Below the pieces are notes generated by a model. That model had not been told where the DNA came from. It worked only from the letters and a program-made list of their open reading frames with translations, and ran no database searches. A stretch of DNA of 64,000 nucleotides, from NCBI GenBank assembly GCA_025782575.1, contig JALGYY010000017.1:361892-425891 (forward strand), read 5' to 3'. A program made the position numbers and the translations under genes. Shown here piece after piece: positions 3,613 through 52,984 of this stretch; position 1 is the first letter of the stretch; the number at the start of each line of letters is the position of its first letter. The DNA comes from a bacterium (GTDB lineage: Bacteria > Orphanbacterota > Orphanbacteria > Orphanbacterales > Orphanbacteraceae).

Positions 3613-4296
3613 ATGAAGCAACTCCTCATACTGACCTTGCTTTTTTCGTTTGCAGCTACCGAGCTGTACGCGCAGAACACGGGTACGGTAGTCGTTCGCG
3701 GACGTGTAGCGAAAGCCGCGGCTCTCCGGTGGTGGACCTACACACCCATCAATGCGGAAGCCGGCATCAACGCGCCAAACCTCGCCAACGGTCCTCTGGC
3801 GTTTGATATCAACCTGGATGACGTGGCGGCCGGGAATAGTCTCGTGGGGTATGGCGGCGGTGAAGTGGAGATGATCTTACGATCCAATACGGCTTACACT
3901 CTGGACGCGCAGGTGACGTCGTCGAGCGGCTTCGGGCTAGTGGGCGATGGTGATCTCGCGCTTTCGGATGTCGGCTTCGGCATGTCGAGCCTCGCGAATT
4001 CCGGAGCGAAAGTGTTCCTGGATCCGGCCGCCGGCTCCACGATCGCGGCCGGTTTCAACGCGGATCCGGCGACCGCTGGAAAAGACGGTGACGATGAGCC
4101 GATCTTCACGCGGACCCTCAGCGACGTCTCGGCATCGACGCAGGTGCTCAGCGGCCCGCGGATTTCGAACCGCGGCGGCATCGGCTCCCCGAACAACGGA
4201 CTCATGGTGACATCGAGCTACGCGGTAGGCCCGCAGTTCTACACGCCGGTCGATCCCTGGTCGGCCACGGTCACCTACACCCTGGCAACTCCATAG
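3613..4296 (+). CDS. Secreted pilin-like subunit 1
   Basis: 227 residues with a clear signal peptide (MKQLLILTLLFSFAATELYA, then QNTG). The mature protein is predicted all-beta and Ser/Gly/Ala-rich, and ends in alternating hydrophobic strands (SATVTYTLATP), as fimbrial and spore-coat-U-like subunits do. It shares with the next gene the blocks G-K-D/N-x-D-D-E-P-x-F and A-V-x-P-Q-F-Y-T-P at matching places near the C-terminus, so the two are paralogues. The next gene starts 5 bases downstream and the third encodes a PapD-like chaperone, which supports a subunit role. AGGAG lies 10 bases before the ATG. The pilin role is inferred; no named family is recognised. Confidence 0.6.
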   Translation: MKQLLILTLLFSFAATELYAQNTGTVVVRGRVAKAAALRWWTYTPINAEAGINAPNLANGPLAFDINLDDVAAGNSLVGYGGGEVEMILRSNTAYTLDAQVTSSSGFGLVGDGDLALSDVGFGMSSLANSGAKVFLDPAAGSTIAAGFNADPATAGKDGDDEPIFTRTLSDVSASTQVLSGPRISNRGGIGSPNNGLMVTSSYAVGPQFYTPVDPWSATVTYTLATP

Positions 4297-4301
4297 GAAT
4301 C

Positions 4302-5012
4302 GTGCGCGGACGTCTGAATCACATCAGTCACGCTTTCCGGTCCGCGCACCGGGCGGGGGGGGCTTACCCCTCCGCCCCGTTTCTTGTTCTGGCTGCTTTC
4401 GTTATTCTACTGACAGGGGCCGCACCGATTGAGGCGCAGAGCGAGATCACTCTCGTCCTTCCGACTCCCGGCCCCGGCATCAGTATCCCTGATTCCATTA
4501 AGGTCCGGATCAATCTGCATTTCGGGATAGACCCAGGGGATGGAGCAGCACCACCATCTCTCGGCACAGTCAATCTCGGAGAACTTTCACCCATCAATCT
4601 ATCCGGTTTTGCATCGGGAACGATTCGCATCCGTATCTACTCCCCCTTCGGTTTTGTTCCCCCCTATACAGTCCGGGCGAGGACGTTCATCCCGCCTGAT
4701 CGTACAGTGGGAAATTTCAATACCAATGACATCGGAATGGGAATCAGGGGGATTGTAGCGAGCCTTCCCCGGGTGAATGGCAACTATGACTATGACCCAC
4801 GGCTGGTGGGAAAGAACATCGACGATGAACCGAACTTCGCCGGGACCGTCGGTGGACTACCGACAGGATCCCGGGGCCACCGATTGTATCGAACGAGAGG
4901 ATGGTACGTCGGTCGCTGGAACTACTTCACGTTGGTCTTCGCAGTGGCGCCACAATTCTATACACCGTCCGCATCGGTCGATGCGGTCCTCGAGTTGGAG
5001 CTGATGTTGTAA
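4302..5012 (+). CDS. Secreted pilin-like subunit 2
   Basis: 236 residues beginning with a GTG that follows AGGAATC. A long n-region precedes the hydrophobic signal segment (FLVLAAFVILLTGAAPIEA, then QSEI). The mature part repeats the pattern of the preceding protein: an early beta-rich segment, the block GKNIDDEPNFAGT, and a final A-V-A-P-Q-F-Y-T-P strand leading into VDAVLELELML. It lies between the first subunit gene (5-base gap) and the chaperone gene (TAATG overlap), so the three form a tight operon. Probably an exported structural subunit. Identity as a pilin is inferred from paralogy, C-terminal beta-strands and the chaperone partner. Confidence 0.6.
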   Translation: MRGRLNHISHAFRSAHRAGGAYPSAPFLVLAAFVILLTGAAPIEAQSEITLVLPTPGPGISIPDSIKVRINLHFGIDPGDGAAPPSLGTVNLGELSPINLSGFASGTIRIRIYSPFGFVPPYTVRARTFIPPDRTVGNFNTNDIGMGIRGIVASLPRVNGNYDYDPRLVGKNIDDEPNFAGTVGGLPTGSRGHRLYRTRGWYVGRWNYFTLVFAVAPQFYTPSASVDAVLELELML

Positions 5013-6175
5013 TGAGATACTCCTATTGCGTATTGACGGCAGCTTCGATTCTCCTCGCGTGCCCGGCCTACGGGGGTAACGTGTCGATCATGCCGAGCCT
5101 GATCGAAGCCACGATCGAGCGGGGGAGAGATCAGACTACTTTGGTACAGATCATTTATTCCAAGGACGGCCCGGAGGATACGGCCCCGCTTCGAATCGCG
5201 CTTAGCGAGGAGCAGTGGGATATGGACCGAATCGGTCAGGTATCGTTCAGCCCTCAGCCCGCCGACAGGAATCCGCACGATCCGAGGATCGTGTTCTCTC
5301 CTTCCGAGTTGGAGATTCGCCCCGGCGAGACGATGGAAGTTCGCCTGTCGATCATTGTTTCTGACAGCACGGTAGCCGGAGAGTACAGAAGCGCGTTGAT
5401 TGCCGAGCCACGGATCCCCTACAAGCCTCTCGAACAGGGAGAGCGACGGCTTCAAATGCGGCTTCGTCTATCGACGATTCTCTATGTCGAGGTTCCTCGG
5501 ATCGAACACGATGTCGAACTGGCCGGACTCCGGGTGGACAGAGTGGAGGGCCAATGGAACGTGATTCCGGAATTCCGAAACAACGGCAACGGACACACTC
5601 GCATTTTCGATTGGCTCGAACTCTATCCGCTGACAGGGGATGATCGGGGAGAAGCCATCTACTCGAAAGAGATGGATGAATCAGGCGTGGTGCTCCCGGG
5701 ACGGACACGTGAGATTCACGAGAAACTGCTGGTCGAGCTCCCACCAGGCGATTTCCTGCTTGTCTATCGTGCCGACGGGGGGCGGGATTCCCCTCTCATG
5801 GAAGGGGAACTCTCGTTTACGAACTTCGGTGATGCGCCCGAGGCTGACACCATTGACGTGGATGATCAGCCGGAAGAAGCTCCGGAAACGAAACCTGTGA
5901 TCATCGCCGGGGTTCGTGACCGACTCTCGGACGGATACTGGGTTCAGTTGTTTGCGACCGACGACTATGAGCGGGCCCACGATTTTGCTGAAGCGATCGA
6001 CCCCTCATTCAAAGAGACGGTCAGTCTCCACTATGACGAGCCACATTACAAGGTCCTCGTCGGCGGATATTCCACTAGAACCGAAGCCCAGGATCTGCGA
6101 GTACGTGTGGCGGCAAGCGGTTTTCAGGAAGCGTGGATTGTCAGAACGTCAGAGCTGAACAGCCCATCCAGATAG
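5012..6175 (+). CDS. PapD-like periplasmic chaperone fused to a SPOR domain
   Basis: 387 residues. The ATG at 5012 overlaps the preceding TAA by one base and begins a signal peptide (MRYSYCVLTAASILLACPAYG). Residues about 22-250 resemble fimbrial-chaperone Ig domains: an N-terminal strand with I-x-P-x-x-I-E-A-T, the P-x-R-I-V-F-S-P-S-E-L-E-I-R-P-G-E block typical of PapD domain 1, and a second beta domain. Residues about 310-380 are a SPOR domain (YWVQLFATDDYERAHDFAE, then HYKVLVGGYSTRTEAQDL), a fold that binds denuded peptidoglycan. An acidic Pro/Glu linker separates the parts. A chaperone carrying a SPOR domain is unusual and may tie subunit handling to septal peptidoglycan. Domain calls are by eye. 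Confidence 0.7.
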   Translation: MRYSYCVLTAASILLACPAYGGNVSIMPSLIEATIERGRDQTTLVQIIYSKDGPEDTAPLRIALSEEQWDMDRIGQVSFSPQPADRNPHDPRIVFSPSELEIRPGETMEVRLSIIVSDSTVAGEYRSALIAEPRIPYKPLEQGERRLQMRLRLSTILYVEVPRIEHDVELAGLRVDRVEGQWNVIPEFRNNGNGHTRIFDWLELYPLTGDDRGEAIYSKEMDESGVVLPGRTREIHEKLLVELPPGDFLLVYRADGGRDSPLMEGELSFTNFGDAPEADTIDVDDQPEEAPETKPVIIAGVRDRLSDGYWVQLFATDDYERAHDFAEAIDPSFKETVSLHYDEPHYKVLVGGYSTRTEAQDLRVRVAASGFQEAWIVRTSELNSPSR

Positions 6176-6236
6176 TCTCTCTTCATTGAGGATCGATCGA
6201 ACCCGACCTCCTCGTGCATAGTGCAGGAAGTTGGCT

Positions 6237-7100
6237 CTATAGATTCGCCGTCGCCCGCACTACTTTTTGTTGAGGCTGAAAGATCTGATTCATCATTCTG
6301 AGCACCGAATCGACCCCCTTGCTCCTAATGTCAAGCACCATACCGACCAACTCGGACTCTCTTGAGAGCAAAGACTGTACTTCTTCATTCGGTTGCCGAA
6401 ACGTCTGACCAGAACCAATCTCCAATTGTAAACTTTCCTGAATTCTCTGGCCGAGCTCTCTGGCATTCTTGATCAGGTTCTTTGCGGCAGGAACCAGCAT
6501 GTTGGTTTCTCCACCCGTGTAGATGGACGCGATGATTGAGACGATTATAAAAAAACTGCCGATAACGATTGAGCTTACTAGCCGCGCGTCTTCGACCGAT
6601 CCGATCTCCCCGGTCATCCTGGACCGGATATCCGAGGCCTGGTCCAAAATTGCGTCGCGCATTTCATTCAGGCCGTCCGGTAAATCGCCGAGTGCGCTCA
6701 GCACATTCTGTGAGTTCTCGACCACGTTTCTCATCAGAGCCTGAATATCCGGCATGGCGTCGCCCCCGCTAAGACCGGCTGCCATCGCAGCCACGCTCGA
6801 TCCTAGCCCGATCATCGGCTCGCGGAGGTGTTTGGGAAGTTGCGGAACGGGCAGCGCGGCTTCGGCGCTGTTGTTCAGCAGCTTACCAATTGTGGATGAT
6901 CTCGAATTCGTAAGTCCTTCGGCAGCCTTCTTTATACTCTCACGGGCGGCTGATTCAGCCGTTGGTTTCGTCGAGCGCGGACCGGCTACTCCGACACCTT
7001 TTCGACTCTCTGAACCCTTGCTTGCCTCTTCAATTGCTTCCTTTGCATCATTTGCCATCTCATTCGAAACGGAGGGCATCTTCGGCTTGTTGATCTTCAT
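6237..7100 (-). CDS. Hypothetical membrane protein with helical N- and C-terminal regions
   Basis: 287 residues, no family recognised. The N-terminal 75 residues are Lys/Glu/Ser/Ala-rich and probably disordered or helical. Residues about 95-165 are helical, with repeated hydrophobic and Asp/Asn positions. One strong transmembrane segment is visible (SSIVIGSFFIIVSIIASIYT, near residue 180). The C-terminal 90 residues look coiled-coil. There is no signal peptide. The arrangement recalls translocon-like or needle-complex hydrophobic proteins, but I see no specific motif. The ATG follows GAGGAAGAG. It lies downstream of, and in the same direction as, the usher-like gene (190-base gap), which makes a joint role possible but unproven. 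Confidence 0.55.
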   Translation of the reverse strand: MKINKPKMPSVSNEMANDAKEAIEEASKGSESRKGVGVAGPRSTKPTAESAARESIKKAAEGLTNSRSSTIGKLLNNSAEAALPVPQLPKHLREPMIGLGSSVAAMAAGLSGGDAMPDIQALMRNVVENSQNVLSALGDLPDGLNEMRDAILDQASDIRSRMTGEIGSVEDARLVSSIVIGSFFIIVSIIASIYTGGETNMLVPAAKNLIKNARELGQRIQESLQLEIGSGQTFRQPNEEVQSLLSRESELVGMVLDIRSKGVDSVLRMMNQIFQPQQKVVRATANL

Positions 7101-7289
7101 GGCTCTTCCTCTTATACTAAATAAGGTTGATTATTTCTAGCCGATTCATTTGGCTGGAGGCCACAATCTCCCGGGAAACGTTTCTCTCGAATCAGGAAAT
7201 GACAGGATTAAGATACGTGCGGGACTTGGAATTGATCAGGGTGGGATCTCGGCCGGTGGAGAATTCCGCCCGGTTCTGGAGCGGGGTCT

Positions 7290-9773
7290 CTAACGTTCTT
7301 CTAGCCGGCTTGTGAAGATTGTCCTGATTACCGGACGGCTGACCGGCTGCAGGGGAATCAGGATCGGCCCCGGATCTCGATCGCTTGGAATCAGGATCTC
7401 CTGAGAGTCGGGTGCTTTCAAGTCTTCCGAGAGCGAAGAGCGGTCCACAAGAAGAACATGGACGCCGGGCGACAAGTCTCCGAGTCGGTACCGCCCTTCC
7501 CAGTCGGTTACCGTGTCTCCTCCCCCCTGCACCAGGATATGGAGGTCCCCCACTCCCGGTTCTCCCTCGTCTCGCTTTCCATTCAGGTTCCTGTCCTCGA
7601 ATGCGATCCCCTGAAGCGTACGATTGATCCCGGTACGGAAATCGACACCGACCGTATGAAAGGCGGGACAGACGACCGGACGGTCTCCGCCGTCCAGCAG
7701 ACAAAGATCGGCGCGAACCGTTCGCGGCGCGATTGAGACCGTGTGATCTCCCGCCGAGACAACTGCGAATCGATAGCGCCCGTCCTCCCCGGTCACTTCC
7801 CGAAACCGCCCCCCGTCGAGCATGATCGCGACGTCATTCAAAGGACGGTCCCCATCATCGAAAAGCCCGTTCAGATTGCGATCGAGATAAACCCGCCCCT
7901 CGATCGTAGAAATATGCCGGAGGGATCGGCCGGCGCCTGTTGCCGGGACGAGAGCGCCTCCTCCCCGGGACAGAAAGAACATCCCTTCTCCGTTAATGCG
8001 ACTGGTCGTACCGCTCTGGTGTTCGTCCATAAGGAGATCGAACCTGTGGAATCCACCGAAATTCCATGTCAGGCGAAACTGTCCGAGTGTGCCGCCCCCC
8101 CGATTCTGCTGAGCCCGGGACCAGCGCGCGCCGAGAGTGATCTGCAGCGAGCGGCTCCTGAGGAAAGACCGTATCCAGTAGAGCGAAACACCTTCGAGAG
8201 TCTGGTCGAGCCAGGATCCCGTCAGCTGAGTTGTTCCCATTCGAGTGTCGGCGTTCCAACCTGTGGTCAGATGAATCGGTGCGGCTTCGTCCGTCTTCGT
8301 CCGGGCGGACGCGAACCAGCCACCGGCTGGAAGGCCTCCTCGAACATCGATCATGAGATCCGATTGATCCGCTCCGGTCGCAATCTCAGAGCTCGTAAGC
8401 GTGGCACCCGCCGTTCGGAGCGGTCCGCGGCCGGGGCTGAGCATGGCCGATACCGTGGTGATTCTGTCTGTCCCAGTCTCCCCCTCCCCCCTATCTCGCT
8501 TGAATTCCGATCGTGACGCTTGTAGAGAGAGCAGCCGCCAGGGTCGGAAACCGGCCCCGAGGACATAGAATCGGGAGCCTTCTTCAGCAAATATTGTTGC
8601 AGGCAAGCGAAAACGGGATTCATAGGAGCCAAGCCGGGATCCGATCGACCATCGCCGCCAGGGCCTGAATTCCAGACTTGATTCCCAGGCGAAACCGTTC
8701 GTTACGCCCTTCCTGCCACCGGCGAAAAGCCCGCTCATGGTTTGAGCCCGCAGCCGGCCCCGGGCGAGCCTGTGCTCTGCCGCGATCAGTGTCCCTTCTT
8801 CCTCCCCGTCTCGTTTTCCCACCCAGGCCGTACCCAGACCAAGAGATTGCCCGGCCGGCGCTCCGGGCCTTGCACCGAAAGCATAACTCGTCGTCACGAT
8901 GTCACCTTCGAAGCGTGGATGGCTCAGCGTTCCGCTCCCCCCCCCATGACCGCTCGAGAGTCGGACCCAGCCACCCGCCATCCTCCGCCGACCGCTCTCC
9001 CATTCTCGCGACCACGCTCCTCCCCGCCCGAACGCTCCCAGCCATCTCAATTCGCCGCCGGTACGCACATCGCCTGCCGTCAGAGAGCCCCCCTCCCGAC
9101 CTGTGTAGTGGAGTAGAAAATTCCGAACCACCACCCCCTCCCCCTCTGCCGCCTGGCTGGAAATCGATGTATGGAGATTGCCCCTCCCGAGCCGGCTTCC
9201 GGTCTCCAGTGTGAGTCCTCCGTCCGTTCGACCTGGGCGGCGATTGGAGTAACCTCTATACTTCAGCTCATTCAGACTGAATCCCCCCATGCCGGAGACG
9301 CGAACCCCCGCTTCCATATCGAAACTCATGAGAACAATCTCTGTCTCGTCGGGATCGATATGGGTCCGCACTTCAAACAAGACGGAGAGAATTGAAAGGG
9401 GCAAAAGCAGATCATGCTTCGACGTGCCAAGCGTGAGACCGGGCGGAAGTGTGAGTTCCAGCGCATCATTCCGGCGAATCTCCCCGCTGATGTCGTCATA
9501 GCTGAGAACATCGCCGGTGATCGGGTTCGAAACGGAAACGGAACCGGCGGCCGGATCGTATTCAAAAGCCTGCTGAAGCGCCCGGGCGACCGGCTCAACC
9601 GGAATGTACCAGTGGTTCCCCCGTTTGCCTGGCTGTACGGCGGTGGTCGGAATCTGTTCTCTGTTTACGGTCAGAACGGGGGGAGCGCTAACACCCGGTA
9701 CGCCGGCCGCACTAGCCTGAAGGGGGAAGGCGAGCAAGATCTGAACAGCGGCGATTAGAGAATGCCTCGTCAT
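7290..9773 (-). CDS. Usher-like outer-membrane beta-barrel protein with SdrD-B-type tail domains
   Basis: 827 residues with a signal peptide (MTRHSLIAAVQILLAFPLQASA). Residues about 32-150 form a two-part module (V-N-R-E-Q-I-P, then W-Y-I-P-V-E-P-V-A, then L-L-P-L-S-I-L) like the copper-amine-oxidase-N or stalk domains seen at the start of non-classical ushers. Residues about 155-620 are long alternating amphipathic strands rich in G, R, S and W, as in an outer-membrane barrel. Residues about 630-790 hold two SdrD-B/CNA-B-like modules marked by V-Y-L-D-R-N-L-N-G-L-F-D-D-G-D and F-E-D-R-N-L-N-G-K-R-D-E-G-E. GGAG lies 5 bases before the ATG. With the nearby subunits and chaperone it is a plausible secretion pore of a divergent chaperone-usher system. 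The classical FimD signature was not found. Confidence 0.6.
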   Translation of the reverse strand: MTRHSLIAAVQILLAFPLQASAAGVPGVSAPPVLTVNREQIPTTAVQPGKRGNHWYIPVEPVARALQQAFEYDPAAGSVSVSNPITGDVLSYDDISGEIRRNDALELTLPPGLTLGTSKHDLLLPLSILSVLFEVRTHIDPDETEIVLMSFDMEAGVRVSGMGGFSLNELKYRGYSNRRPGRTDGGLTLETGSRLGRGNLHTSISSQAAEGEGVVVRNFLLHYTGREGGSLTAGDVRTGGELRWLGAFGRGGAWSREWESGRRRMAGGWVRLSSGHGGGSGTLSHPRFEGDIVTTSYAFGARPGAPAGQSLGLGTAWVGKRDGEEEGTLIAAEHRLARGRLRAQTMSGLFAGGRKGVTNGFAWESSLEFRPWRRWSIGSRLGSYESRFRLPATIFAEEGSRFYVLGAGFRPWRLLSLQASRSEFKRDRGEGETGTDRITTVSAMLSPGRGPLRTAGATLTSSEIATGADQSDLMIDVRGGLPAGGWFASARTKTDEAAPIHLTTGWNADTRMGTTQLTGSWLDQTLEGVSLYWIRSFLRSRSLQITLGARWSRAQQNRGGGTLGQFRLTWNFGGFHRFDLLMDEHQSGTTSRINGEGMFFLSRGGGALVPATGAGRSLRHISTIEGRVYLDRNLNGLFDDGDRPLNDVAIMLDGGRFREVTGEDGRYRFAVVSAGDHTVSIAPRTVRADLCLLDGGDRPVVCPAFHTVGVDFRTGINRTLQGIAFEDRNLNGKRDEGEPGVGDLHILVQGGGDTVTDWEGRYRLGDLSPGVHVLLVDRSSLSEDLKAPDSQEILIPSDRDPGPILIPLQPVSRPVIRTIFTSRLEER

Positions 9774-40665: not shown

Positions 40666-43600
40666 ATGAAGAGGAAAACGCACAATCGAATTGTACTGCC
40701 AGGTCTCCTTGTCGTGGTGGGACTGATCTGTCTCGCACTGCCTTTCGCGGACATGGCAATCGCGAAGACCGTCACCGTAACGCTGGACCCCGCGACCACC
40801 AAAGATACTTACAACCAGGAAGACAGCGACAATCGAAACAAGGGGATTGACACCAAGCTCGGGGTGAGGGGTGAGCCGGGCAAGGACAGACATTTGTTCC
40901 TGGAGTTTCCCGTTCCGGCCCAACCTCTGCCCTGGGTACTTACTTCAGCCGAGATCGTCTTCACCGTCAAATCGATGGATCTGACAGGGGACGACATGAC
41001 GATAGGCGCCCACCGTGTTCTCGCTCCCTGGGACGAGGGGGTCGATCAAAACGATAAGGACCTCAACTGGAGTCAACGGAAAACGGACTCGTTATGGGTC
41101 TCTGCGGGGGGTGATTTCACAGGAGAGAGAAGCTCGGTCGATGTCTTCGATGGGGAAAGCACCGTCACACTGGATGTGACTACGTTCATTCAATTCTGGT
41201 CTGCCAATCCGGATTCCAACTTCGGTCTGGTCCTGGTGGACAGTTTGGCTCAATCGGGGTGGCCCGAGGGCGACGAAATCAAATTCTACTCGACTGACGA
41301 AGGGACTCTTAGCAGGCGCCCGGTGCTCACGATGACCTGGGACTCTCTGGCTGTCGTTCCGATCGGCAGCGATGTCGCCGAGATCCAACCGACATTCGTC
41401 CGGGAGAATATCCGCGATACGCTGACACTCTTCATCGCTCTCGAGCTGCCGGGGTTGGAATCGCAGATTGACCAAATCACTATGGCTATGCCCACCGGCT
41501 TCACCGACCCGATAGTGATCAACACAACCTGGAACGGCTCGGGTCGTTCGACATTCGACATGAGTTCGGCGAATCAGCTCGAGCTGTACCTGGATACCCC
41601 TGTATCGAGCGACGGGATACTGGCGATCACCTTCGATGTGGATACGCCTCCGGTCAAAGCACTCGGTGGCGCCGACTTCGTCCCCTACGTGGACGACTGG
41701 TCGACGTTCTCCATACCTGATCAACGGGTGCCCTCCGGGAATGCCAATGGAATCCCGGGCGACGGGGACACTCTCCACGTCGATTTTACTTCGGACGGCA
41801 CTCTCGTGGTCACACCCGACTCAGTTGTAATCGCCGTCGATTCCGCAATTCAGTTCACTGCGGTCATTATCGGCGCAATGGGCGGGAGCACACCGGTCAC
41901 ACCGACCTGGACCGTCACGGGGGGACTCGGCGACATCGATCCGCTCGGAAACTTCACGCCCAAGTTCGTGGGGAGCGGTTGGGTAATTGCTACGTACATT
42001 ACGCTGTCCGACAGCGCCCGGGTCTTCGTCACCCATGGGAGTGTCGATTCACTCGCGATCTTCCCGGTAGACAGCGCAGTTACCGCTGACGGATCCGTAC
42101 AGTATCGGATCCTCGCGTGGGACATCTACAGGAACAGCTTCCTGCCCGATGTCGTCACCTGGTCCGAGCCGACTGGTCTCGGCAGCATGGCTCCTGTCGG
42201 ACTGTTTGATCCGGTAACAGTGGGTATCGGGCTGGTGATCGGGAGTGCGGAAGGTATCTTCGACTCGACCACCGTAACGATCTCAGCCGGAGCGCTGGTA
42301 TCGATGAACGTGACACCGGCGAGCGCAATCCTGACTGCAGACTCTTCACTCCAGTTTGTCGCGACGGGGAGCGACGGGGATGGAAACCCGGTGCCCATCG
42401 ATCCCATTTGGACTGTCAACGGCCCGATGGGGGCGGTCGACGGCACGGGATTATTTACCGCGACGAAAGTCGGCGCAGGCCAGGTGGTGGCACACGTCCC
42501 CCCGATCGCCGCCGAGAGCGAGGTCACTGTCGTTCCCGGCATTATCGCGAGGGTAGTCATCGCCCCCTCTGATACCAGCATTACCGCCGATGATCCCGTC
42601 AGCTATACGGCAATCGCCCATGACGCCGATTCCAATGTCGTATCGACGACATTCACATGGTCGGAGCCGTCAGGCCTCGGATCGATCGATGCTTCCGGGA
42701 TCTACACACCGGGGCTCACCGGAAATGCAATCATTGTGGCAGGAACGGGCATCGCTACGGACACTGCGAGCGCCACCGTCACCGCCGGAGCTCTGGCAAC
42801 CATTGCAATCACCCCCGCCAGCGCGGACGTCACCACCGACTCATCGATTCTCTTTGCGGCTCAAGGTCTCGACGCTCAGGGTAACGACGTGCCGATCTCC
42901 CCGATCTGGAGCATAGTAGGGGCCATCGGAACCATCACCCCCGTCGGTCTGTTCGATCCGACCACCGTGGGTGCCGGTTCCCTGATCGCGACAGATGGTG
43001 CCATTAGTGGATCGGCACCCGTCAACGTCACCGTCGGTGCCGTCGCTACTCTCGCCGTTTCTCCGACCGACACATCCGTGACGACCGACGAAACCGCGAG
43101 CTTCTCCGCGATCGCCTTCGACGCCGATTCCAATCCCTTCACGCCGACTGTGGTGTGGACCGAGCCGACCGGTCTCGGAAGCATCGATGGAAGCGGCCTC
43201 TTCACGCCGAACACGGCAGGCAACGCAATCGTTGTCGGCACGGCGGAAGGCGTTTCGGATACGGCAGATGTCACGATTGCAGCCGGCGCGCTTGCGAGCA
43301 TCGTCATCACTCCGCCCAGCGATTCCATTACGGCCGATTCGACTATTTTCTTTATAGCAGAAGGGTTTGATTCCAAGGGTAATCCGGTCCCCATCAGTGC
43401 CAGCTGGAGCGTGGTGGGTACGATCGGTTCGATCAATGGGTCAGGGCGTTTTGATGCGGAGACAGTCGGGGTCGGACAGGTCATCGTCGCTGCCGGTCTA
43501 TTTGCGGATACAGTCCGGGTCGCTGTCTCTCGCGGACGGGTGGCGACGTTGGCCATCCAGCCTGCTGACACAACGATCACAGCCGACGACGCCGTTTCGT

Positions 43601-46600
43601 ACACGGCGACCGCCTGGGACGATGACGGCAATGCTTTCGTTCCGACCGTCGTCTGGTCAGAGCCGACAGGGCTCGGATCAATCGACGGCGCAGGCCTCTT
43701 TCAGGCGACAATTGTCGGTGACGCAACCGTAGTCGGGACGGCCGAGGGAATTTCTGAATCGGCCGACGTAACGATTACGCCAGGAGTGCTGGCAGCGATC
43801 GTTGTTCTCCCCTCGAGTGCCGGATTGACGACCGATTCTCTCCTCACATTCAGTGCAGCCGGTTTCGACGGGGACGGGAACAGTGTCATTTTCACTCCGA
43901 CCTGGGTTGTAAGCGGCGGCATCGGAAATATCGACGGGGCAGGCCTGTTCGATCCGACTACAGTGGGCAGCGGCAACGTGATTGCCCGATCGGGCGTCAT
44001 TGCGGATACATCGTCTGTCACAGTTTCTCATGGGGCTGCTGATTCGATCGCAGTGAACCCGGCCGTGACAACTCTCACACTCACAGACATCGTAAGTTAC
44101 TTACTGACAGCCTGGGATTTCGATCGAAACGCCTATACCCCGGCCGGGATTTCGTGGACGGAGCCGACCGGCCTCGGGACGATCAACGGTGTCGGGCAGT
44201 TCGACCCGGACACGCCGGGATCAGGCATTGTCATCGGAAGCGCGGAAGGGCTCTCCGATACAGCCTCGTTCACCGTTCTGGCCGCCTCACTGGACAGTAT
44301 CCGCATCGCGCCCTCGATCGCATCGGTTACGACCGACACGCTTCTCCTGTTTACAGCCACGGGATACTTTAATGATGCATCGTCCGGCCCTGTCTCCCCT
44401 GCATGGTCAGTCAACGGCGGTGTGGGGACGATCGATGGATTCGGGCTATTAGATGCCACGCTTCCGGGGGTCGGTTCAGTAGTAGCGAGCCTGAATGGGC
44501 GGACCGACACTGTAACCGTGAGCGTCATGCTCGGCCGAATCAATTCGCTCGAAGTGACTCCTGAAAACGACACGATTACTGCTGCCGAGACGATTCTCTT
44601 TGACGCCGTCGCATACGACGCGGACCATAACTCCATTCCATCGGCATCCTTCACCTGGTCAGAGCCCGGCGCGATCGGATTCATCGACCTGAGCGGCCTC
44701 TTTACGCCGGCATCCCCTGGTGCCGGGATCGTCGTAGGAACATCAAGCGGAATTTCCGACACGGTTTCGTTTACCGTTACGCCCGGTGCACTCGACTACG
44801 TGGTGATCGCCCCGGCCAGCGCCGGCGTTACAACCGATTCCACGCTGGCCTTTGCTGCCACAGGTTACGACGCTCTCGGATTCGAGGTTCTGATCAGCCC
44901 GGCCTGGAGCGTGGAGGGTGGAATCGGTACGGTCGATATCGGCGGCCTGTTCGATCCGACTACGCCCGGGAACGGTTTGGTGATCGTAACGGCCGACGGG
45001 AAGCGCGACACTGCCCACGTGACGGTAACAGCCGGCATGCTCAATTCATTCTTAGTACTCCCATCGGACACCACCATCTCTGTCGACGGACTAGTGGCTT
45101 ACAATGGATTCGGCTTCGATGCCGACGCCAATCCCCTTTCCCTTACCATTATATGGAGCGCGCCGGGTGCGCCCGGTTCGATCACCTCAGGAGGCCTCTT
45201 CACACCAGGCGGCACCGGCTCAGGAATGGTTGTGGGATCGACAGGCGGGTTCAGCGATACGGCAACCGTGACAGTTACGGACAGCAACGCCGCCACTCTC
45301 GAAATTATCCCGAACACAGATAGCGTTACGGCCGATGAAACGATCGATTTCGACGTGATCGCCCTGAATGCTTCAGGGGATCCGGTCCCCCTCCCGGGAA
45401 CTCCGGTCTGGAGCGGTGGTACGGGGATCGGCACCATCGATCCGGCCAGCGGACTATTCGACGCCACTTCGGTGGGAATGGGAACCGTCTCCGTTAGCGC
45501 CGGCGGAGTGAATGTCACGAGCGGCATCATAGTCGTCACGGCCGGCGCTACAGCGTCGATCATGATCACGCCCGGTGCGGTGCTCATTACCGCAGGCAAC
45601 GATACAGCCTTTGCCGCCGTTCCCCAGGACGGTGACGGGAATCCAACCAATGAAGGAGTCTTGTGGTCCGTCACCGGCGGGATCGGTTCGATAGGGGGAA
45701 CAGGGCTCTTTATGGCGACCACAGCCGGCAATGGCCATGTTGTCGCTTCTGCCGGCAGCGTTCTCGATTCGGCAGCCGTTACGGTGCTCGATAACTCCGG
45801 CCTCACCGTAGTTGCCGTCCTGGAGGAGAGAGATCTCGTCCGGGCGGGAGAATCGGCCGTCCCGGTTTCTCTCGTGATCTCCAATGCATCCGGGCAGACC
45901 GTGACCGGCCTTTCCGGCTCCCTTCGATTCTCTTCGGGGGCGACCGACCTCTCGGGCGAGTACACGGTTTCGCTGATTGTCGGAATGCCCGACTCCCTGC
46001 CTGACGGGGCGAGTGACACATGTTACTTCGTAGTCGGGATCGATGACTCCGCAACCACCGGCGAACTGATCACTATTGATGGCTCAGTTTTCGGCACTCT
46101 CGGAATGAGCGGCGCTCCCACCGGAGACCTGGCCGCTGACGTTACGGGAAGCTGGACTGTTACCGAAGCGCCTCTCCTGGACGATGTCACCCGATCTCTT
46201 TTCCCGGCCAGGTCGTATCCTGGAAAGAGTGAGGCATTCGCCATTGCTCTTCGAAATCGCGGGGGAACTTCTCTGACGCTCCAAAGCGGTACGATGCTCT
46301 TTCTTACCGACGGTACGGACTCTCTACTGACACCGTTGCTCGCCGAGGTGACCGTACCGGCAGGCGGTTCCGCTGTGCCCGTCTATTTTTCGACCGCTTC
46401 GATCCCACCAACATTCGATCCCGGTTCCTACGTTCTCACTATTCGAATCACCGGCGTCGACGGAAACGGACTCGACTATCCCGAGCCGCTCATAGCCGAT
46501 AACAACGCGCTACAGATCCTGCCGCCGTACATTCTGGTGGAAGCGATCCCCGTACCGAGTTCGGTCGTTCTCCCGGGAGAAGACTCGCTTCTCCTCATGC

Positions 46601-49600
46601 GGATCGAACTGATCAATCTCTATGAAGACAGTCGCACTCTCGGGAGCGTTCAATTCACGAATCATGTACAGGGGTTGGGAAGCACGGAGGATCATGACGG
46701 TTCATGGGGACTTCTGACTCTTATCAACGATGTCGATCGGGACGGCAACTGGACCGGCGCCGATTCGATGTGGGCAACCGGCTCCTTTACCGGCGGCACC
46801 ATGCTGTTCGAAAACATCGATCAGTCGATCGCCCCTGAAGAGACGCTGTCGGTTCTGCTCACCGGATCGGTCTCCCTCTTTGGCGCACGGGATGGTGATG
46901 AACTCGACGTCACCATCGCCGGCCCGGGAGAAATCGATTTCGGTGACACCACTGCGGTCTCCGCCGCCGACACTTTGAATTCCCCCGGTGCACGATTCGT
47001 CGACGGTATGGTGGCGGCCCAGATCAAGATAACAGGCGGATTCCCCGTTTCTCTTCCGGCAGGTGGCGACGACTCGCTTGCCATGGTTATCCGCATTCCA
47101 TCGAACGGGTATATGACCGACACGCTGCGGACTATCAGCGTCGGAAACCTCGCCGATGCCGAACCGGCGATCGATATCGCCGAACTCCGGCTGTTCGCCG
47201 ACGGAGGCAATGGTCTCTTCGACCGAGACGGTGGGGACGATCAGGATCTCGGGCCCATGCCCTGGATCGGCGATATCTGGTCGCTCTCCCGAATCGATCT
47301 CCCCATCCCTCCTGGTGGCGCACTCCTCTACGTAGCCGTAGATGCGGCCGACGGGGCGACGGAAGAGCGTGTGCTTCGACTCACGCTCCCGGTCGACGGG
47401 ATCGACATGGCAAGCTCGAACGACGGTCCGATCGACCAGCCGGTCTCCTGCCCGGACAGCCGGATCCTATCCGGCGCGAACCGGATCGTTGTAAGAGCGC
47501 TCGTATTCGTACCCGCCGCGATGCCGATCCCGGGTGACTCCCTTTACCCGGCGCTCCATATCGAGGTATCCAATTCCTATGCGGATACCGCCATACTCGA
47601 GCAACTGAGCGTTGAGGATCAAAGCTACGGAGCAAATCCGGATGCCATTCTGAAGCGCGCCTATCTCCTCGGAAAAGACCGCTCAACCGTTTCGATCGCT
47701 GACCGCTTGGACGGGGCGTTCCATTTTTCCGGCTTCCGGATTCCTGTAGTACCAGGCCGTACTTGCACCCTCGCCGTGGTGGCCGATGTGGGCCTCGAAT
47801 GCATCAGCGACGGTGATCGCCTCGATCTCTGGATCGACGATGAGCAGGAGTTGACATTCGCGCGGCAGCGCCGAGTGGCCGGGCTCTGGCCCGTAAGGAC
47901 GGGCGCCTCCCTCGAGGTCGACGGACACGCGGCGGCGCAAATCTCGTTCCAGCAGTCAGGAGGGGGCGCACTCCGACCAGGCGAGACAAATCGCACCGTG
48001 CTCAGGCTCAACATACCCTCTAACGGCTGCCTGCCCGACACGCTCTCGGGACTTCGATTGACGAACAGAGGATCGCTCACAGCCGAAAAGATCGACCGTA
48101 TGTCGCTCTATTCGGGAACCGATGGAGAAACGGAGATCGGGGAACTTGTCTGGAATGGTTCAATCTGGGGCCGGGAGGGGATGAATGTTCCGATTGATTC
48201 TTCAGGTTCCCTGCTGACGGTCAAGATTGATCTCTCACTGGCGGCGGATGATGGCGCTTCCCTTCAGATGGCTGTCCCCGTCGACGGGATCACGGTTCGA
48301 TCGGATAACGACGGGCCCGTCGACAAGCAAGCGGTTTCCGGAGACATCTATCTGGTGACTGACTCTCCAATCTTCGCTTCCATGGCTGCATCTCCCCTCA
48401 GGGTCAGTATTGGCCAGCAGATTCAGGTAGCGCTCGACGTGCAGAACTACTCCCCCATCACACCGGAAACCGTATTCGGCGTGGCGCCCGATTCAATGGC
48501 GCCATCTAGCAGCATTGTGGAATTGCTTGAAGACCCGACCACCCTTGCCGATACACTTTCTCCCGACGAAAACCATGAATTCATCTGGCGTTTCCGCGCC
48601 ACCGAAGTCGGCACGATTCAGTTTGCAGGGCGTGCTGCGGGGACGAATAGCTCCGAGGAAACTGTGCAGACCCTCGTCGCACTTTCGAACGGAATCACGA
48701 TTCAGATCCCGCCAACTTCTCTCCTCGTAAACGCAGTCGCAACACTGCCTGAAGCGATCGCCCGTGGTGAAGCGCACGAGCCGGTCTTCGTCATCTCACT
48801 TGCCCATGCCGATACGACTGAGAATGCCGCACCGGTCAGGGTCGACTCAATCGCTTTCTCGATTGAGGATATCAACGGGAATGCGCTGGCCGCCGGCGCG
48901 TTCTTCTCCGGCTTTTCGATTGAACGAACAGGACGAGTGATCGGATCAATCAATGCCGATGACTTTGACGGGAACATCGTCCGCGTAGCTTTGAACGAAC
49001 CGATTTTAGTAACGCCCACAGGAGAAGCGGCATTTACAGTGATCGCTTCGGTTGATGAAGCCCCGTCAGCAACACGATTTCGAATCGTGATGAACGGCAC
49101 CGGCAGTGTCTTCGCAAGGGACGCGAACTCCGGCGCGACCGTCGGTGTGACGGGAATTTTTCCCGTCCGGACCGGCGGAACTGAAGTATTTGATACACCA
49201 ACCGGATTACGTGCCCTCGTATACGGAACGCTTCCACCGAGCCTGAACCGGGGTTCGAAAGATGTAAGAATCGCTCACTTCAGCCTGGAGGCGGAGGGGG
49301 GCGGAACCCTCACTTCCGAAATCGCCATCGATCTGATCAAGGTCTTCGTAGAGGGAGGCCACTTCCCATTCGCGGCTGTAAAAGTCGTAGCGGGAGACAT
49401 TGTGTCGTACGATGATTCAACATGGGAAACAGTAGGCGACACACTTCTACTCTATCTTTCACCGCCGGTCCTGGTTCCACCAAGTCAGACAGTAGGCTTC
49501 ATCTTCCAGGGTGATCTTTCCGAAGATTCCCCGCTTGGCCCGATTCGGTTTACCGGGTATGACCTGCAGGCTCGAGCCGCGGCTGGAGGAGAGATCGTTC

Positions 49601-50913
49601 CGGCTACGGTCGAATCGGACGGGGCGATCGAGACTGTAGTAGTCCTCCCCGCCGAATCGATTCGTGCGACCGGTATCGCAGGCATAGAAGAGGTCGACCT
49701 CTTCCCCGGAACGCAGAGCCACATCCCGTTCGGCCTCGGGTTAAGTCACAATTCTCCTGACTCGACAGCCGGTGTGATTGTCGAAAGTGTTCGCATTCGG
49801 CTGGAATCGGATGAAGGAACGACATCGCCTATTCGTTCCACCCTCAGCCGGATCCAGATACGGGAGGATGATATCGTCATCGCCTCGATCGCTCCGCTCA
49901 GGGACGATGTCGATACGATTACGATTCCACTCAGTTCGCCTTTCCTTCTGGTGGCGGGGGACAGCGCCTATTTCGAGGTCCAAGTAGACATTCAGGGAAA
50001 CGCGCCCGTCGGCAGCTACCGGCTCGCTCTGGACCCGGGAGCGGTCGCCGCCAAAGACGCCAACAATGGCGCGGTCGTTTCAGTCGAACTCGCCGGAGAT
50101 GGTGAGCCGTTCCGATCCGGGGTAATAAACGTTCGGGAGCCGGCGGCACAGGTCGAGGTGGCCGTAAACCTGATGCTTCCAGCCGCATCAAGTAGCGGCG
50201 AACTGGTTCCGGGTGCGGTTGACCTCCATCTTCTCGTGCCGGGCGGGGATGCGAACGAAGGATCGCTTCACTTACGCTCGTTCTCGTTAGTCGTTGAGAA
50301 CTCTGATGGGAAGAAGATCGATCCGTCGATGGCTCTGGAAAGTGCGGAATTATGGACAAGCGATTCAACTTCCATAGAAGCGATTCTCGAAACCGGTGTG
50401 GTTCGGTTCCGGTTCGACCCGCCGACAGTTCTGACCTCGGGAGACACATTGAATCTTCACGGTGATCTCCGGTTTGCGGAAGAGATCGACCTTCCCTCTT
50501 TCCGAATTGCTCTCGATATCGGCGATCTCGATCTCGTAGAAGCTGTGCCGATACTGGCGAGTCCGGCCGGCGGCACCAATCCATCGCCGTTCACTTATCT
50601 GGCGGCGCGCGAATTCGAAGCGAGCATTCGGAACTACCCGAATCCGTTCTCCTCGATCAACGGGGAGACGGTAGTGACATTTTTTTCCGGCATGCCGGGG
50701 AAAGCGACAATACGAATCTACACGGCCCTCGGCGACCCGGTTCAAATCCTGGAAAGCGACATAGTTGGCGGCGGACTCGTTCGACTTAATTGGGACGGCA
50801 AAAACGGTAAGGGACAAAGCGTGCTGAACGGCGTTTACATCGCTTCGATCGAAGTTACCTATGATAATGGGGTGAAGGAACATGCGATTCACAAGATCGC
50901 TGTGCTCAACTAG
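40666..50913 (+). CDS. Giant secreted repeat protein with C-terminal sorting domain
   Basis: 3415 residues. A long signal peptide (hydrophobic core VLPGLLVVVGLICLALPFA) is followed by a DNRLRE-like beta domain to about residue 225, with VTLDVTTFIQFW and G-L-V-L-V-D-S. Residues about 377-1710 are 16 Ig-like repeats of about 83 residues. Residues about 1710-3310 are further beta modules, several resembling each other, with recurring V-D-G-I-x-x-x-S-x-N-D-G-P-x-D blocks. The last 95 residues are a FlgD-like sorting domain: RNYPNPFSS, ATIRIYTALGDPV, NWDGKNGKGQSVLNGVY. It is probably exported across the outer membrane and surface-bound. AGCGGAGCG-like purines precede the ATG. The next gene overlaps it by 32 bases. 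Confidence 0.85.
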   Translation: MKRKTHNRIVLPGLLVVVGLICLALPFADMAIAKTVTVTLDPATTKDTYNQEDSDNRNKGIDTKLGVRGEPGKDRHLFLEFPVPAQPLPWVLTSAEIVFTVKSMDLTGDDMTIGAHRVLAPWDEGVDQNDKDLNWSQRKTDSLWVSAGGDFTGERSSVDVFDGESTVTLDVTTFIQFWSANPDSNFGLVLVDSLAQSGWPEGDEIKFYSTDEGTLSRRPVLTMTWDSLAVVPIGSDVAEIQPTFVRENIRDTLTLFIALELPGLESQIDQITMAMPTGFTDPIVINTTWNGSGRSTFDMSSANQLELYLDTPVSSDGILAITFDVDTPPVKALGGADFVPYVDDWSTFSIPDQRVPSGNANGIPGDGDTLHVDFTSDGTLVVTPDSVVIAVDSAIQFTAVIIGAMGGSTPVTPTWTVTGGLGDIDPLGNFTPKFVGSGWVIATYITLSDSARVFVTHGSVDSLAIFPVDSAVTADGSVQYRILAWDIYRNSFLPDVVTWSEPTGLGSMAPVGLFDPVTVGIGLVIGSAEGIFDSTTVTISAGALVSMNVTPASAILTADSSLQFVATGSDGDGNPVPIDPIWTVNGPMGAVDGTGLFTATKVGAGQVVAHVPPIAAESEVTVVPGIIARVVIAPSDTSITADDPVSYTAIAHDADSNVVSTTFTWSEPSGLGSIDASGIYTPGLTGNAIIVAGTGIATDTASATVTAGALATIAITPASADVTTDSSILFAAQGLDAQGNDVPISPIWSIVGAIGTITPVGLFDPTTVGAGSLIATDGAISGSAPVNVTVGAVATLAVSPTDTSVTTDETASFSAIAFDADSNPFTPTVVWTEPTGLGSIDGSGLFTPNTAGNAIVVGTAEGVSDTADVTIAAGALASIVITPPSDSITADSTIFFIAEGFDSKGNPVPISASWSVVGTIGSINGSGRFDAETVGVGQVIVAAGLFADTVRVAVSRGRVATLAIQPADTTITADDAVSYTATAWDDDGNAFVPTVVWSEPTGLGSIDGAGLFQATIVGDATVVGTAEGISESADVTITPGVLAAIVVLPSSAGLTTDSLLTFSAAGFDGDGNSVIFTPTWVVSGGIGNIDGAGLFDPTTVGSGNVIARSGVIADTSSVTVSHGAADSIAVNPAVTTLTLTDIVSYLLTAWDFDRNAYTPAGISWTEPTGLGTINGVGQFDPDTPGSGIVIGSAEGLSDTASFTVLAASLDSIRIAPSIASVTTDTLLLFTATGYFNDASSGPVSPAWSVNGGVGTIDGFGLLDATLPGVGSVVASLNGRTDTVTVSVMLGRINSLEVTPENDTITAAETILFDAVAYDADHNSIPSASFTWSEPGAIGFIDLSGLFTPASPGAGIVVGTSSGISDTVSFTVTPGALDYVVIAPASAGVTTDSTLAFAATGYDALGFEVLISPAWSVEGGIGTVDIGGLFDPTTPGNGLVIVTADGKRDTAHVTVTAGMLNSFLVLPSDTTISVDGLVAYNGFGFDADANPLSLTIIWSAPGAPGSITSGGLFTPGGTGSGMVVGSTGGFSDTATVTVTDSNAATLEIIPNTDSVTADETIDFDVIALNASGDPVPLPGTPVWSGGTGIGTIDPASGLFDATSVGMGTVSVSAGGVNVTSGIIVVTAGATASIMITPGAVLITAGNDTAFAAVPQDGDGNPTNEGVLWSVTGGIGSIGGTGLFMATTAGNGHVVASAGSVLDSAAVTVLDNSGLTVVAVLEERDLVRAGESAVPVSLVISNASGQTVTGLSGSLRFSSGATDLSGEYTVSLIVGMPDSLPDGASDTCYFVVGIDDSATTGELITIDGSVFGTLGMSGAPTGDLAADVTGSWTVTEAPLLDDVTRSLFPARSYPGKSEAFAIALRNRGGTSLTLQSGTMLFLTDGTDSLLTPLLAEVTVPAGGSAVPVYFSTASIPPTFDPGSYVLTIRITGVDGNGLDYPEPLIADNNALQILPPYILVEAIPVPSSVVLPGEDSLLLMRIELINLYEDSRTLGSVQFTNHVQGLGSTEDHDGSWGLLTLINDVDRDGNWTGADSMWATGSFTGGTMLFENIDQSIAPEETLSVLLTGSVSLFGARDGDELDVTIAGPGEIDFGDTTAVSAADTLNSPGARFVDGMVAAQIKITGGFPVSLPAGGDDSLAMVIRIPSNGYMTDTLRTISVGNLADAEPAIDIAELRLFADGGNGLFDRDGGDDQDLGPMPWIGDIWSLSRIDLPIPPGGALLYVAVDAADGATEERVLRLTLPVDGIDMASSNDGPIDQPVSCPDSRILSGANRIVVRALVFVPAAMPIPGDSLYPALHIEVSNSYADTAILEQLSVEDQSYGANPDAILKRAYLLGKDRSTVSIADRLDGAFHFSGFRIPVVPGRTCTLAVVADVGLECISDGDRLDLWIDDEQELTFARQRRVAGLWPVRTGASLEVDGHAAAQISFQQSGGGALRPGETNRTVLRLNIPSNGCLPDTLSGLRLTNRGSLTAEKIDRMSLYSGTDGETEIGELVWNGSIWGREGMNVPIDSSGSLLTVKIDLSLAADDGASLQMAVPVDGITVRSDNDGPVDKQAVSGDIYLVTDSPIFASMAASPLRVSIGQQIQVALDVQNYSPITPETVFGVAPDSMAPSSSIVELLEDPTTLADTLSPDENHEFIWRFRATEVGTIQFAGRAAGTNSSEETVQTLVALSNGITIQIPPTSLLVNAVATLPEAIARGEAHEPVFVISLAHADTTENAAPVRVDSIAFSIEDINGNALAAGAFFSGFSIERTGRVIGSINADDFDGNIVRVALNEPILVTPTGEAAFTVIASVDEAPSATRFRIVMNGTGSVFARDANSGATVGVTGIFPVRTGGTEVFDTPTGLRALVYGTLPPSLNRGSKDVRIAHFSLEAEGGGTLTSEIAIDLIKVFVEGGHFPFAAVKVVAGDIVSYDDSTWETVGDTLLLYLSPPVLVPPSQTVGFIFQGDLSEDSPLGPIRFTGYDLQARAAAGGEIVPATVESDGAIETVVVLPAESIRATGIAGIEEVDLFPGTQSHIPFGLGLSHNSPDSTAGVIVESVRIRLESDEGTTSPIRSTLSRIQIREDDIVIASIAPLRDDVDTITIPLSSPFLLVAGDSAYFEVQVDIQGNAPVGSYRLALDPGAVAAKDANNGAVVSVELAGDGEPFRSGVINVREPAAQVEVAVNLMLPAASSSGELVPGAVDLHLLVPGGDANEGSLHLRSFSLVVENSDGKKIDPSMALESAELWTSDSTSIEAILETGVVRFRFDPPTVLTSGDTLNLHGDLRFAEEIDLPSFRIALDIGDLDLVEAVPILASPAGGTNPSPFTYLAAREFEASIRNYPNPFSSINGETVVTFFSGMPGKATIRIYTALGDPVQILESDIVGGGLVRLNWDGKNGKGQSVLNGVYIASIEVTYDNGVKEHAIHKIAVLN
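41794..45800 (+). repeat. Sixteen tandem Ig-like repeat units (about 249 bp each)
   Basis: In-frame units of about 83 codons. Each begins with I-x-P-x-x-x-x-x-T-x-D and ends with D-T-x-x-V-T-V-x-x-G-x-L. Two types alternate through unit 14: odd units carry W-S-V-x-G-x-I-G-T-I-D, even units carry W-S-E-P-T-G-L-G-S-I-D. The array therefore grew by doubling of a two-unit block of about 500 bp. Units 15 and 16 depart from the alternation. Confidence 0.85.
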
Positions 50914-52984
50914 GCAGGTGCTGAGGAGCGGTCTACGAGCAGCGCGGAAACGCGTGGCTCTCGTATCCGTGACGGCATCCCTTTGCCTGCTTCTCCCCTC
51001 GGACACCTGCAGCGCCGGTGGTCTGGATGGCGGGACGGATTCGCCGTTCGCTGCCGGTGCCGGTGCGCGGGCGCTTGCGCTGGGTGGCGCCTATACAGCA
51101 GTCGCCGAAGGCCCGTCAGCACTCGTCTGGAACCCGGCCGGCCTGGCGCTCGAACAGAGAAAGACCGCTTCGTTCTACTACTCTTCCCCCTTCCTGGAGG
51201 GGAGCCGGTACACGTTTGTCGGTTACACTCACCCCCTTCTGGATCTCGGAACTCTGGGATTCGGCAATCTGCGCTACGGCGTCGGCGAAATCGATAAATA
51301 TGGATCCGATGGTGCCCCCCTCGGATCGTTCTCCAATGTGCAGAACGAGTGGTTACTCTCCTACGCACCCCCTCCCTTTGGTCCGGCCAGTTTCGGCGCC
51401 AACCTGAAGGTGGAGACTCATGAGCTGGATGACAAATCGGCCACAGCAGTCGGCGCCGACTTAGGCGTCTTGATTCGATCGGAAGAACGATCGCGACATG
51501 CCCTCGCCAGGCAGAATTTCGGTCTCGGTATCTCGATCCGGAATATCCTGGAGCCACGACTTACACTTTCGGAAGAAGAGCAGAGTCTTCCCCTTCTCGT
51601 TCGAAGCGGTGTATCCTATTCGCTCCCCCTTGGGAGTTCCCTCTCCCGTCGCGTTCTACTTCTGGCTTCATTCGAGCAGGGAGTGGAGAGCGGAGGGCGG
51701 TCCCGGTTCGGCGCCGAGTTTGACGTGGACCCGACCGTCGCCCTACGTGTGGGCGCCGGCCCGGAAGAGTGGTCTACCGGTGTGGGTTTTGCGCTCAGCG
51801 GGGGCACGATCGATTACACGTTTGCCTCCCACGAGATCGGTTCCACCCATCGCGTGGAATTGACGCTCGCGTTCGGCACCGGTCTCCACGATCTCCGCCT
51901 TGCCCGTCAACGGGAAGAAGAGGAGCACCTCGCCAAACGAACGGAAGAGGAACTCCTGCAGAAAGAGCGGAACCAGATCGAGACCAATCTCGCCCAGGGG
52001 AGGCGCCACTTCAAGAAGAAGGCCTACACCCAGGCGGAGGCGTGGTTCGAGCGCGCACTCCTGTGGGATTCCGAGAACTCCGAAGCGCTTTCCATGCTCA
52101 GCCAATGCCGGTGTGAGCGCCATCTGGACGCCGCCTACGCGCGAGCTGAAAACGGAGACCTTCTTGACGCCATCGAGTCCTGCAACGAGGCGTTGGCTGC
52201 CTTGCCCGGCGATTCGCGAGCGACTAACCTCCTTGGCGAGCTCCGGACGCGGCTTGAACTGAGTTCCGCACGAAGTCGCGAAGTGAGTGAGTTCCTCGCC
52301 AAGGGGATCGAGTATCTGACGGTAGGCAATTTCTCCGGCGCCACCAATTCATTTATGGGGGTACTCGAAGTCGACGAAGGAAACCCCGAAGCGACTCGCT
52401 ATCTCGCTCGAACCGACTCTCTCGCCGGTGCGCAGGTACTTGCTCTCGTCGAGGAGGCCGACTGGTTCCGGAAGCGAGGAGACTTGAAGGGCGCCCGAGA
52501 GCGTATTCGAAGAGCGATGTCCATTCAGCCTGAGAATCTCAAACTTCGAAACACACTCGCCAGACTCGACCAAGCATCGAGTCGTACAGAGGCATCCGCG
52601 AAAGTCGAATCAGCGCGCGAGCAGGCACTCCCCCAACGTACACTTTCCTCTGCTGAAGCGGGAGAGGCAGAGCGCATGTACCAATCGGGTGTCGAAGAAT
52701 TCAGAAACCGCCGCCACAGCGAGTCAATCCCCTATTTTGAATTCGTTTTCGCGCTCCAGCCGGCCTACGAGAACGTCACCCCCTACCTGAAGCAGGTCTA
52801 TCTCTTCGTCGGCATGGAGCAGTTCACCGCAGGCAATCTGGTACAGGCTGTAAATCTATGGGAGAAAATCCTCGACATCGATCCGAACGACGAGAAAGCG
52901 CTCAGCTATGTTCGCCGGGCCTGGATCGCCATCAGGAAGACTCGCGAACTCGCTGTCTCCAGCGAGACTTCAACGGGCGGATAG
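50882..52984 (+). CDS. PorV/UPF0164-like outer-membrane protein fused to TPR domain
   Basis: 700 residues. An N-terminal signal (VALVSVTASLCLLLPSDTCSA) precedes a beta-barrel of about 300 residues that starts with SPFAAGAGARALALGGAYTA, then VWNPAGLA, the PorV/UPF0164 pattern. From about residue 340 a charged coiled segment (QREEEEHLAKRTEEELLQKE) leads into tetratricopeptide repeats to the end. PorV-type proteins receive type IX cargo at the outer membrane. The ATG at 50882, after GAAGGAAC, lies inside the last codons of the giant repeat gene (32-base overlap), so the two are coupled. A GTG at 50918 is a weaker alternative start. The TPR part is unusual and may be periplasmic. Confidence 0.82.
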   Translation: MRFTRSLCSTRQVLRSGLRAARKRVALVSVTASLCLLLPSDTCSAGGLDGGTDSPFAAGAGARALALGGAYTAVAEGPSALVWNPAGLALEQRKTASFYYSSPFLEGSRYTFVGYTHPLLDLGTLGFGNLRYGVGEIDKYGSDGAPLGSFSNVQNEWLLSYAPPPFGPASFGANLKVETHELDDKSATAVGADLGVLIRSEERSRHALARQNFGLGISIRNILEPRLTLSEEEQSLPLLVRSGVSYSLPLGSSLSRRVLLLASFEQGVESGGRSRFGAEFDVDPTVALRVGAGPEEWSTGVGFALSGGTIDYTFASHEIGSTHRVELTLAFGTGLHDLRLARQREEEEHLAKRTEEELLQKERNQIETNLAQGRRHFKKKAYTQAEAWFERALLWDSENSEALSMLSQCRCERHLDAAYARAENGDLLDAIESCNEALAALPGDSRATNLLGELRTRLELSSARSREVSEFLAKGIEYLTVGNFSGATNSFMGVLEVDEGNPEATRYLARTDSLAGAQVLALVEEADWFRKRGDLKGARERIRRAMSIQPENLKLRNTLARLDQASSRTEASAKVESAREQALPQRTLSSAEAGEAERMYQSGVEEFRNRRHSESIPYFEFVFALQPAYENVTPYLKQVYLFVGMEQFTAGNLVQAVNLWEKILDIDPNDEKALSYVRRAWIAIRKTRELAVSSETSTGG

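Follow-up and report, generated by a model that had tools for sequence, protein, structure and literature searches.

According to PMC4654587, the archaic (sigma, Csu-type) chaperone-usher systems range over Proteobacteria, Cyanobacteria, and Deinococcus-Thermus. The locus described here lies in a 64,000-nucleotide stretch of DNA (the window) from a bacterium that is related to Candidatus Eisenbacteria. It and its relatives share with the archaic systems a chaperone homologous over its full length, small secreted subunits that have a putative strand extension at the N-terminus, a large outer-membrane protein with two predicted beta-sandwich domains at its C-terminus, and an operon of subunit, chaperone, and sometimes barrel genes. 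They differ in that the chaperones form a separate clade in a FastTree phylogeny (SH support 0.995), the barrels are not matched by PF00577 and in most cases lack the plug, the C-terminal domains are of the SdrD_B/CnaB type, and the subunits miss the known pilin families. The EcpB chaperone (5dfk) of the alternative chaperone-usher pathway Ecp weakly matches the profile of the new chaperone family (E 0.002), while the barrels match no Ecp protein in a PDB search and the subunits match no pilin family in Pfam. The WxLIP proteins of Gram-positive WxL clusters (9i1y, 9i25) also have two Ig-like domains, both of which are matched by the new chaperones, but the WxL system belongs to a monoderm cell wall with WxL domains and has no outer membrane or barrel; here there is no WxL domain. 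SdrD and the MSCRAMM adhesins share the SdrD_B domains, which form a long surface stalk in those proteins; here two such domains end an outer-membrane barrel protein.

The locus encodes, with a probability of about two in three, a divergent chaperone-usher pathway. This reading is favored because the chaperone is homologous to archaic chaperones over both domains, several related loci have subunits that match archaic ones, the genes co-occur, and sister barrels are homologous to ushers. All five open reading frames at 3613-9773 are present as first described (Table 1). The chaperone gene starts at ATG 5012 and overlaps the stop codon of the second subunit in TAATG, and for this reason the three plus-strand genes look like one operon. 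A 424-residue version of the chaperone starting at 4901 was rejected as overlong. The barrel gene is convergent with the operon, and the initial annotation correctly placed it on the opposite strand from the subunit genes with a membrane-protein gene between them. It was also correct that no classical Fim or Pap type is present: none of the classical families of ushers, PapD proteins, or pilins is matched by the window proteins, and PF00577 (Usher) has no match anywhere in the source genome.

Table 1. Features of the locus, in window coordinates, with supporting evidence or conservation in sampled genomes (G numbers).
Feature	Position	Strand	Evidence or conservation
Subunit 1 (P0001), 227 aa	3613..4296	+	56-57% identity to G002/G005 copies, 66-73% to G387/G343 copies
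Subunit 2 (P0002) of the same pilin-like group, 236 aa, starting with GTG	4302..5012	+	Kept in G002, G005, G343, G387
Chaperone-SPOR fusion (P0003), 387 aa	5012..6175	+	hhalign to archaic pilus chaperones; Foldseek
Two Ig-like chaperone domains of P0003, residues about 23-274	5078..5833	+	Alignment; AF2
SPOR domain of P0003, septal peptidoglycan-binding type	5930..6145	+	Pfam PF05036; alignment
Membrane/coiled-coil protein (P0004), 287 aa	6237..7100	-	ORF between chaperone and barrel genes
Usher-like outer-membrane protein (P0005), 827 aa	7290..9773	-	Orthologues 37-42% identical in G002, G005, G386, G387; partial in G343
P0005 N-terminal periplasmic domain, residues 32-150, Cu_amine_oxidN1-like	9324..9680	-	Weak Pfam match; AF2
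P0005 beta-barrel region, residues 155-612	7938..9311	-	Crude strand count; plug HMM
P0005 GD-x14-RG motif, residues 234-251	9021..9074	-	Alignment of 29 barrels
P0005 SdrD_B/CnaB domain 1, residues 622-700, at usher CTD1 position	7674..7910	-	Pfam PF17210
P0005 SdrD_B/CnaB domain 2, residues 718-795, at usher CTD2 position	7389..7622	-	Pfam

The locus is real and is conserved beyond chance co-occurrence. The two subunits, the chaperone, and the convergent barrel recur together in G002, G005, G343, and G387, so the four-gene set is found in five genomes of two families including the source, with G343 and G387 belonging to the second family. The class of the source genome is represented by seven genomes in the sample. 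In G005 the operon and the barrel are on separate contigs, with the 3' end of the chaperone adjoining the barrel, and G386 also carries a barrel of the P0005 type. A contig scan with P0005 as single query found no relatives, while an alignment-based scan found two records, Candidatus Eisenbacteria OFTM309 (L043) and Gemmatimonadetes MAG SS_bin_27 (L044). The expected conservation of five genes thus holds for four of them and not for the membrane protein P0004, which is not syntenic with the operon or the barrel in G002, G005, G343, or G387. Its sole relative in the class (L147, 31% identity) is at 234 kb on contig C4 of G002, and the G002 operon is at about 770 kb. P0004 was rejected as a component on the basis of this missing synteny and is probably not part of the system. 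It matches no Pfam family, and by eye it has a single membrane segment, with ends resembling coiled coils.

Along its full length, the chaperone shares homology with the archaic pilus chaperones. In hhalign the P0003 group matches six archaic chaperones taken from PF00577 loci over 224 columns (Prob 97.6, E 4e-12), and the match covers both domains, as expected for a two-domain PapD-like periplasmic chaperone. The wider chaperone family reaches E 6e-22 in a profile-profile comparison with the archaic chaperones, and its members have only domain-level or superfamily matches in Pfam and NCBIfam. In the archaic systems the carboxylate anchor consists of Arg89 and Tyr196 of CsuC (PMC4654587). Arg126, in the GEYR sequence of P0003, is aligned to the YR that archaic chaperones conserve, and the likely D2 position carries no Tyr in our presumed mapping of P0003 to CsuC. 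In the FastTree phylogeny, chaperones beside plugged barrels branch near the base, and the clade associated with plugless barrels has a support of only 0.735. The fusion of the chaperone to a SPOR domain was described correctly for P0003 (SPOR E 2e-8). As a general trait it is not supported: Pfam finds SPOR in only four of 31 family chaperones, the aligned orthologues of G002 and G343 lack the SPOR tail, and the G005 copy ends at a contig edge.

Clusters related to this one, so far without a name, occur across dozens of distant families of bacteria. Relatives of the L033 chaperone were found in 47 of 386 sampled genomes, P0003 among them (E 1e-9), while PF00577 matches eight of the same 386 genomes and neither P0005 nor any of 29 family barrels. 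Forty neighborhoods were taken, selected on the chaperone only, and a chaperone was called in 37. In 21 of these 37 loci the chaperone is directly followed on the same strand by a barrel protein of 770-1195 aa with two SdrD_B/CnaB domains at its end (criterion: same strand, >600 aa, at least two SdrD_B domains, no more than two genes downstream). Only one such two-SdrD_B protein was not adjacent to a chaperone (Fisher p 8e-8). The other 16 loci have no recognized same-strand barrel adjoining the chaperone. The SdrD_B pair is found in nearly all family barrels, and the chaperone gene is usually preceded by genes for small secreted proteins, about 150-330 aa long. The barrel search also caught distant loci through their SdrD_B tails, several of which consist of one or more subunits, a chaperone, and a barrel. 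The system had been suggested as a branch in FCB-type bacteria, and a restriction to these does not hold: Deinococcus plasmids carry the set, with each gene annotated as hypothetical protein in three records.

Some loci of the family have other arrangements. On contig C75 of G359 (L110 and L136), a PF00577 usher operon, two chaperone genes of the new family, and a two-SdrD_B barrel lie within about 25 kb. Five loci (L076, L091, L095, L097, and L105) have two chaperone genes or a tandem two-copy fusion of 530-576 aa, together with several small secreted genes and no recognized barrel nearby, and they may be a further assembly type.

At least four barrels of the family keep a predicted plug and are, judged from sequence, clear usher homologues. 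Five sister barrels (L033, L107, L112, L089, and L113) match the archaic-type ushers of PF00577 over 506 columns (Prob 99.4, E 5e-21) and still do so with the SdrD_B tail removed (E 6e-13), while DUF11-type control barrels gave no usher match in the same comparison. The tails of sister groups clearly match usher C-terminal domains with E-values of 1e-8 to 2e-9. An HMM of the plug built from ushers is positive in L033, L107, L112, and L089 and negative in all other family barrels, including P0005 and its orthologues. It seems that the plug has been lost or replaced in many pores of the family.

For P0005 itself, the link to ushers is indirect, through synteny, domain order, and weak collinear matches, and homology is only suggestive. 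The SdrD-B-like tail noted earlier consists of two SdrD_B domains (E 1.5e-12). The amine-oxidase-N-like front module is weak in P0005 (Pfam E 0.044) and significant in its distant relative L033 (E 4e-8). The P0005 N-terminus has a weak collinear match to the N-termini of ushers and of L033; from there to the GD motif, hhalign gives a collinear match to ushers at an E-value of about 0.003 (controls 0.5), and hmmsearch with the corresponding usher region gives no significant match. The first G of GD and the last G of RG in GD-x14-RG are kept in at least 90% of 29 barrels, and ushers have GD...G followed by the plug at this place. The tail matches ushers at E 4e-4, and generic SdrD_B domains come close to this level with E 0.002. 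The 463 aa that separate the N-terminal domain from the tail give 25-30 strands in a crude count across thresholds, and the barrel region has room for about 24-28; 24 are expected, and the usher alignment gives 22-25 at the same thresholds. AF2 pLDDT is 56-83 for residues 51-140 of the N-terminal domain and 29 for the barrel, which was modeled from a three-sequence alignment; Foldseek with this low-confidence barrel model found no match at E <= 0.001. PDB and NCBIfam searches of the barrel returned only CnaB/SdrD-type domains or low-level noise, and an identity as MSCRAMM adhesin was rejected, the tail alone being matched. P0005 should be called usher-like rather than an usher because the PF00577 and plug features both fail. 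The earlier description as a large usher-like barrel agrees with the domain order and a marginal profile match to ushers, while the plug expected under that description is not detectable in P0005 or most of the family; by its own criterion P0005 is not a standard usher.

These results bear on the possibility that P0005 is no usher relative but another outer-membrane barrel, taken over to anchor or export subunits, that binds those delivered by the chaperone and displays them on the surface without forming a fiber. Once the tail is removed, the P0005, L030-type, and L075-type barrels have no significant usher homology, which together with the missing plug and the use of SdrD_B domains as generic adhesive or scaffold modules agrees with such a protein. 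However, true homologues of ushers are encoded at sister loci that share the gene order and the two-domain tail, and in P0005 the N-terminus, GD motif, and tail are arranged as in ushers. Recruitment of an unrelated barrel is considered unlikely.

Several other large proteins were observed. The barrel of the second G002 locus (L030, 8842-12429, plus strand) is preceded by a long, repetitive N-terminal linker with NTSTNTSTN stretches and repeated EPTHRAPVP blocks. The source genome also encodes a 1812-aa protein (L034, G000:C2:878000-896000, at 3810-9248 on the minus strand) that ends in an outer-membrane barrel and also has DUF11-like repeats, a single SdrD_B domain, and an OmpA-like part. Barrels like it are found in unrelated genomes, in L037 (3005 aa) and in L033 (15222-17774), where the barrel adjoins a chaperone-usher-like operon. 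Elsewhere in the window, a 3415-aa ORF (40666-50913, plus strand) has a marginal C-terminal FlgD_ig match and contains opposite-strand ORFs, and its end is overlapped by a TPR protein (50882-52984).

The two subunits are homologous to each other, as first proposed (27% identity over 173 aa, blastp E 2e-8). Subunit 1 has a signal peptide and, judged by eye, an N-terminal strand-like extension (NTGTVVVRGRV) and an alternating C-terminal strand (WSATVTYTLATP). Pfam finds nothing in either protein. Family subunits from the mixed loci match archaic subunits over 151 columns in a profile-profile comparison (E 3e-7), and the subunit group of L085, L106, and L109 matches this mixed group at E 9e-11. 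P0001 and P0002 match the mixed group at E 2e-5, but over 33 columns only, and their direct profile comparison with archaic subunits is at chance level. DUF4402 pilin was rejected as a general label because it matches one of 38 subunits. The subunits may have incomplete Ig folds and undergo donor-strand exchange.

The chaperones also resemble WxLIP. The family profile matches Enterococcus WxLIP in the PDB over both domains (E 2e-10). The best Foldseek match of the P0003 model, which is good for the second domain only (pLDDT about 85), is WxLIP 9i25 (E 4e-7), although the two structures superpose poorly (TM 0.26-0.37). The locus could instead be a diderm version of the WxL/WxLIP surface system, with the WxLIP-like protein staying bound to the subunits at the surface or peptidoglycan and not being released as a chaperone. 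This would fit these best matches, the WxLIP_PGBD match in nine of 31 chaperones (Pfam), and the pointer to peptidoglycan from the SPOR fusions, but it is improbable given that the full-length match to archaic pilus chaperones is stronger, that Pfam finds no WxL domain in any of the 38 subunits scanned, and that usher homologues adjoin the chaperone in several loci.

As a divergent chaperone-usher pathway, the cluster probably builds surface fibers in the manner of chaperone-usher pili, with a very different outer-membrane pore. Both subunits would be exported to the periplasm, where P0003, by homology to archaic pilus chaperones, would cap and fold them. The chaperone-subunit complexes may then dock at the N-terminal domain of P0005, whose large barrel would be the exit pore. 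The SdrD_B/CnaB pair may act in place of usher CTD1 and CTD2 and hold the growing base, while the next subunit inserts its N-terminal strand in place of the chaperone and a thin surface fiber grows. With no recognizable plug in this lineage, gating would be by other means, for example the N-terminal or C-terminal domains. In the source species the SPOR domain could hold the chaperone near peptidoglycan at the division site.

The locus thus appears to belong to a divergent branch of the chaperone-usher pathway that is wider than FCB-type bacteria and apparently undescribed. The initial annotation had suggested an undescribed branch; a divergent chaperone-usher-like system is supported, and an FCB limit, the plug, P0004 as a component, and a general SPOR fusion are not. 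Neither Pfam nor NCBIfam has a model naming the barrels as a family, and the literature covered on ushers with SdrD_B, DUF4402, and divergent ushers across phyla, with few subscription papers and preprints among it, describes no such system. A broader proposal is tentative: the chaperone-usher superfamily may include a large branch, as yet without a name, that extends across many bacterial families and is more common than PF00577 ushers in the sample, with the plug lost or replaced in most pores, a C-terminal assembly platform made of paired CnaB domains, and chaperones that link Gram-negative pilus chaperones with Gram-positive WxLIP. If true, this link would suggest that surface assembly by strand complementation predates the split of these systems. 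The archaic branch is the widest known chaperone-usher branch, and a second, more widespread one unseen by Pfam and NCBIfam would revise the number of bacteria thought to make fibers. It would also make many hypothetical gene clusters a testable system, and a plugless usher-like pore would directly raise the question of what the plug is for.
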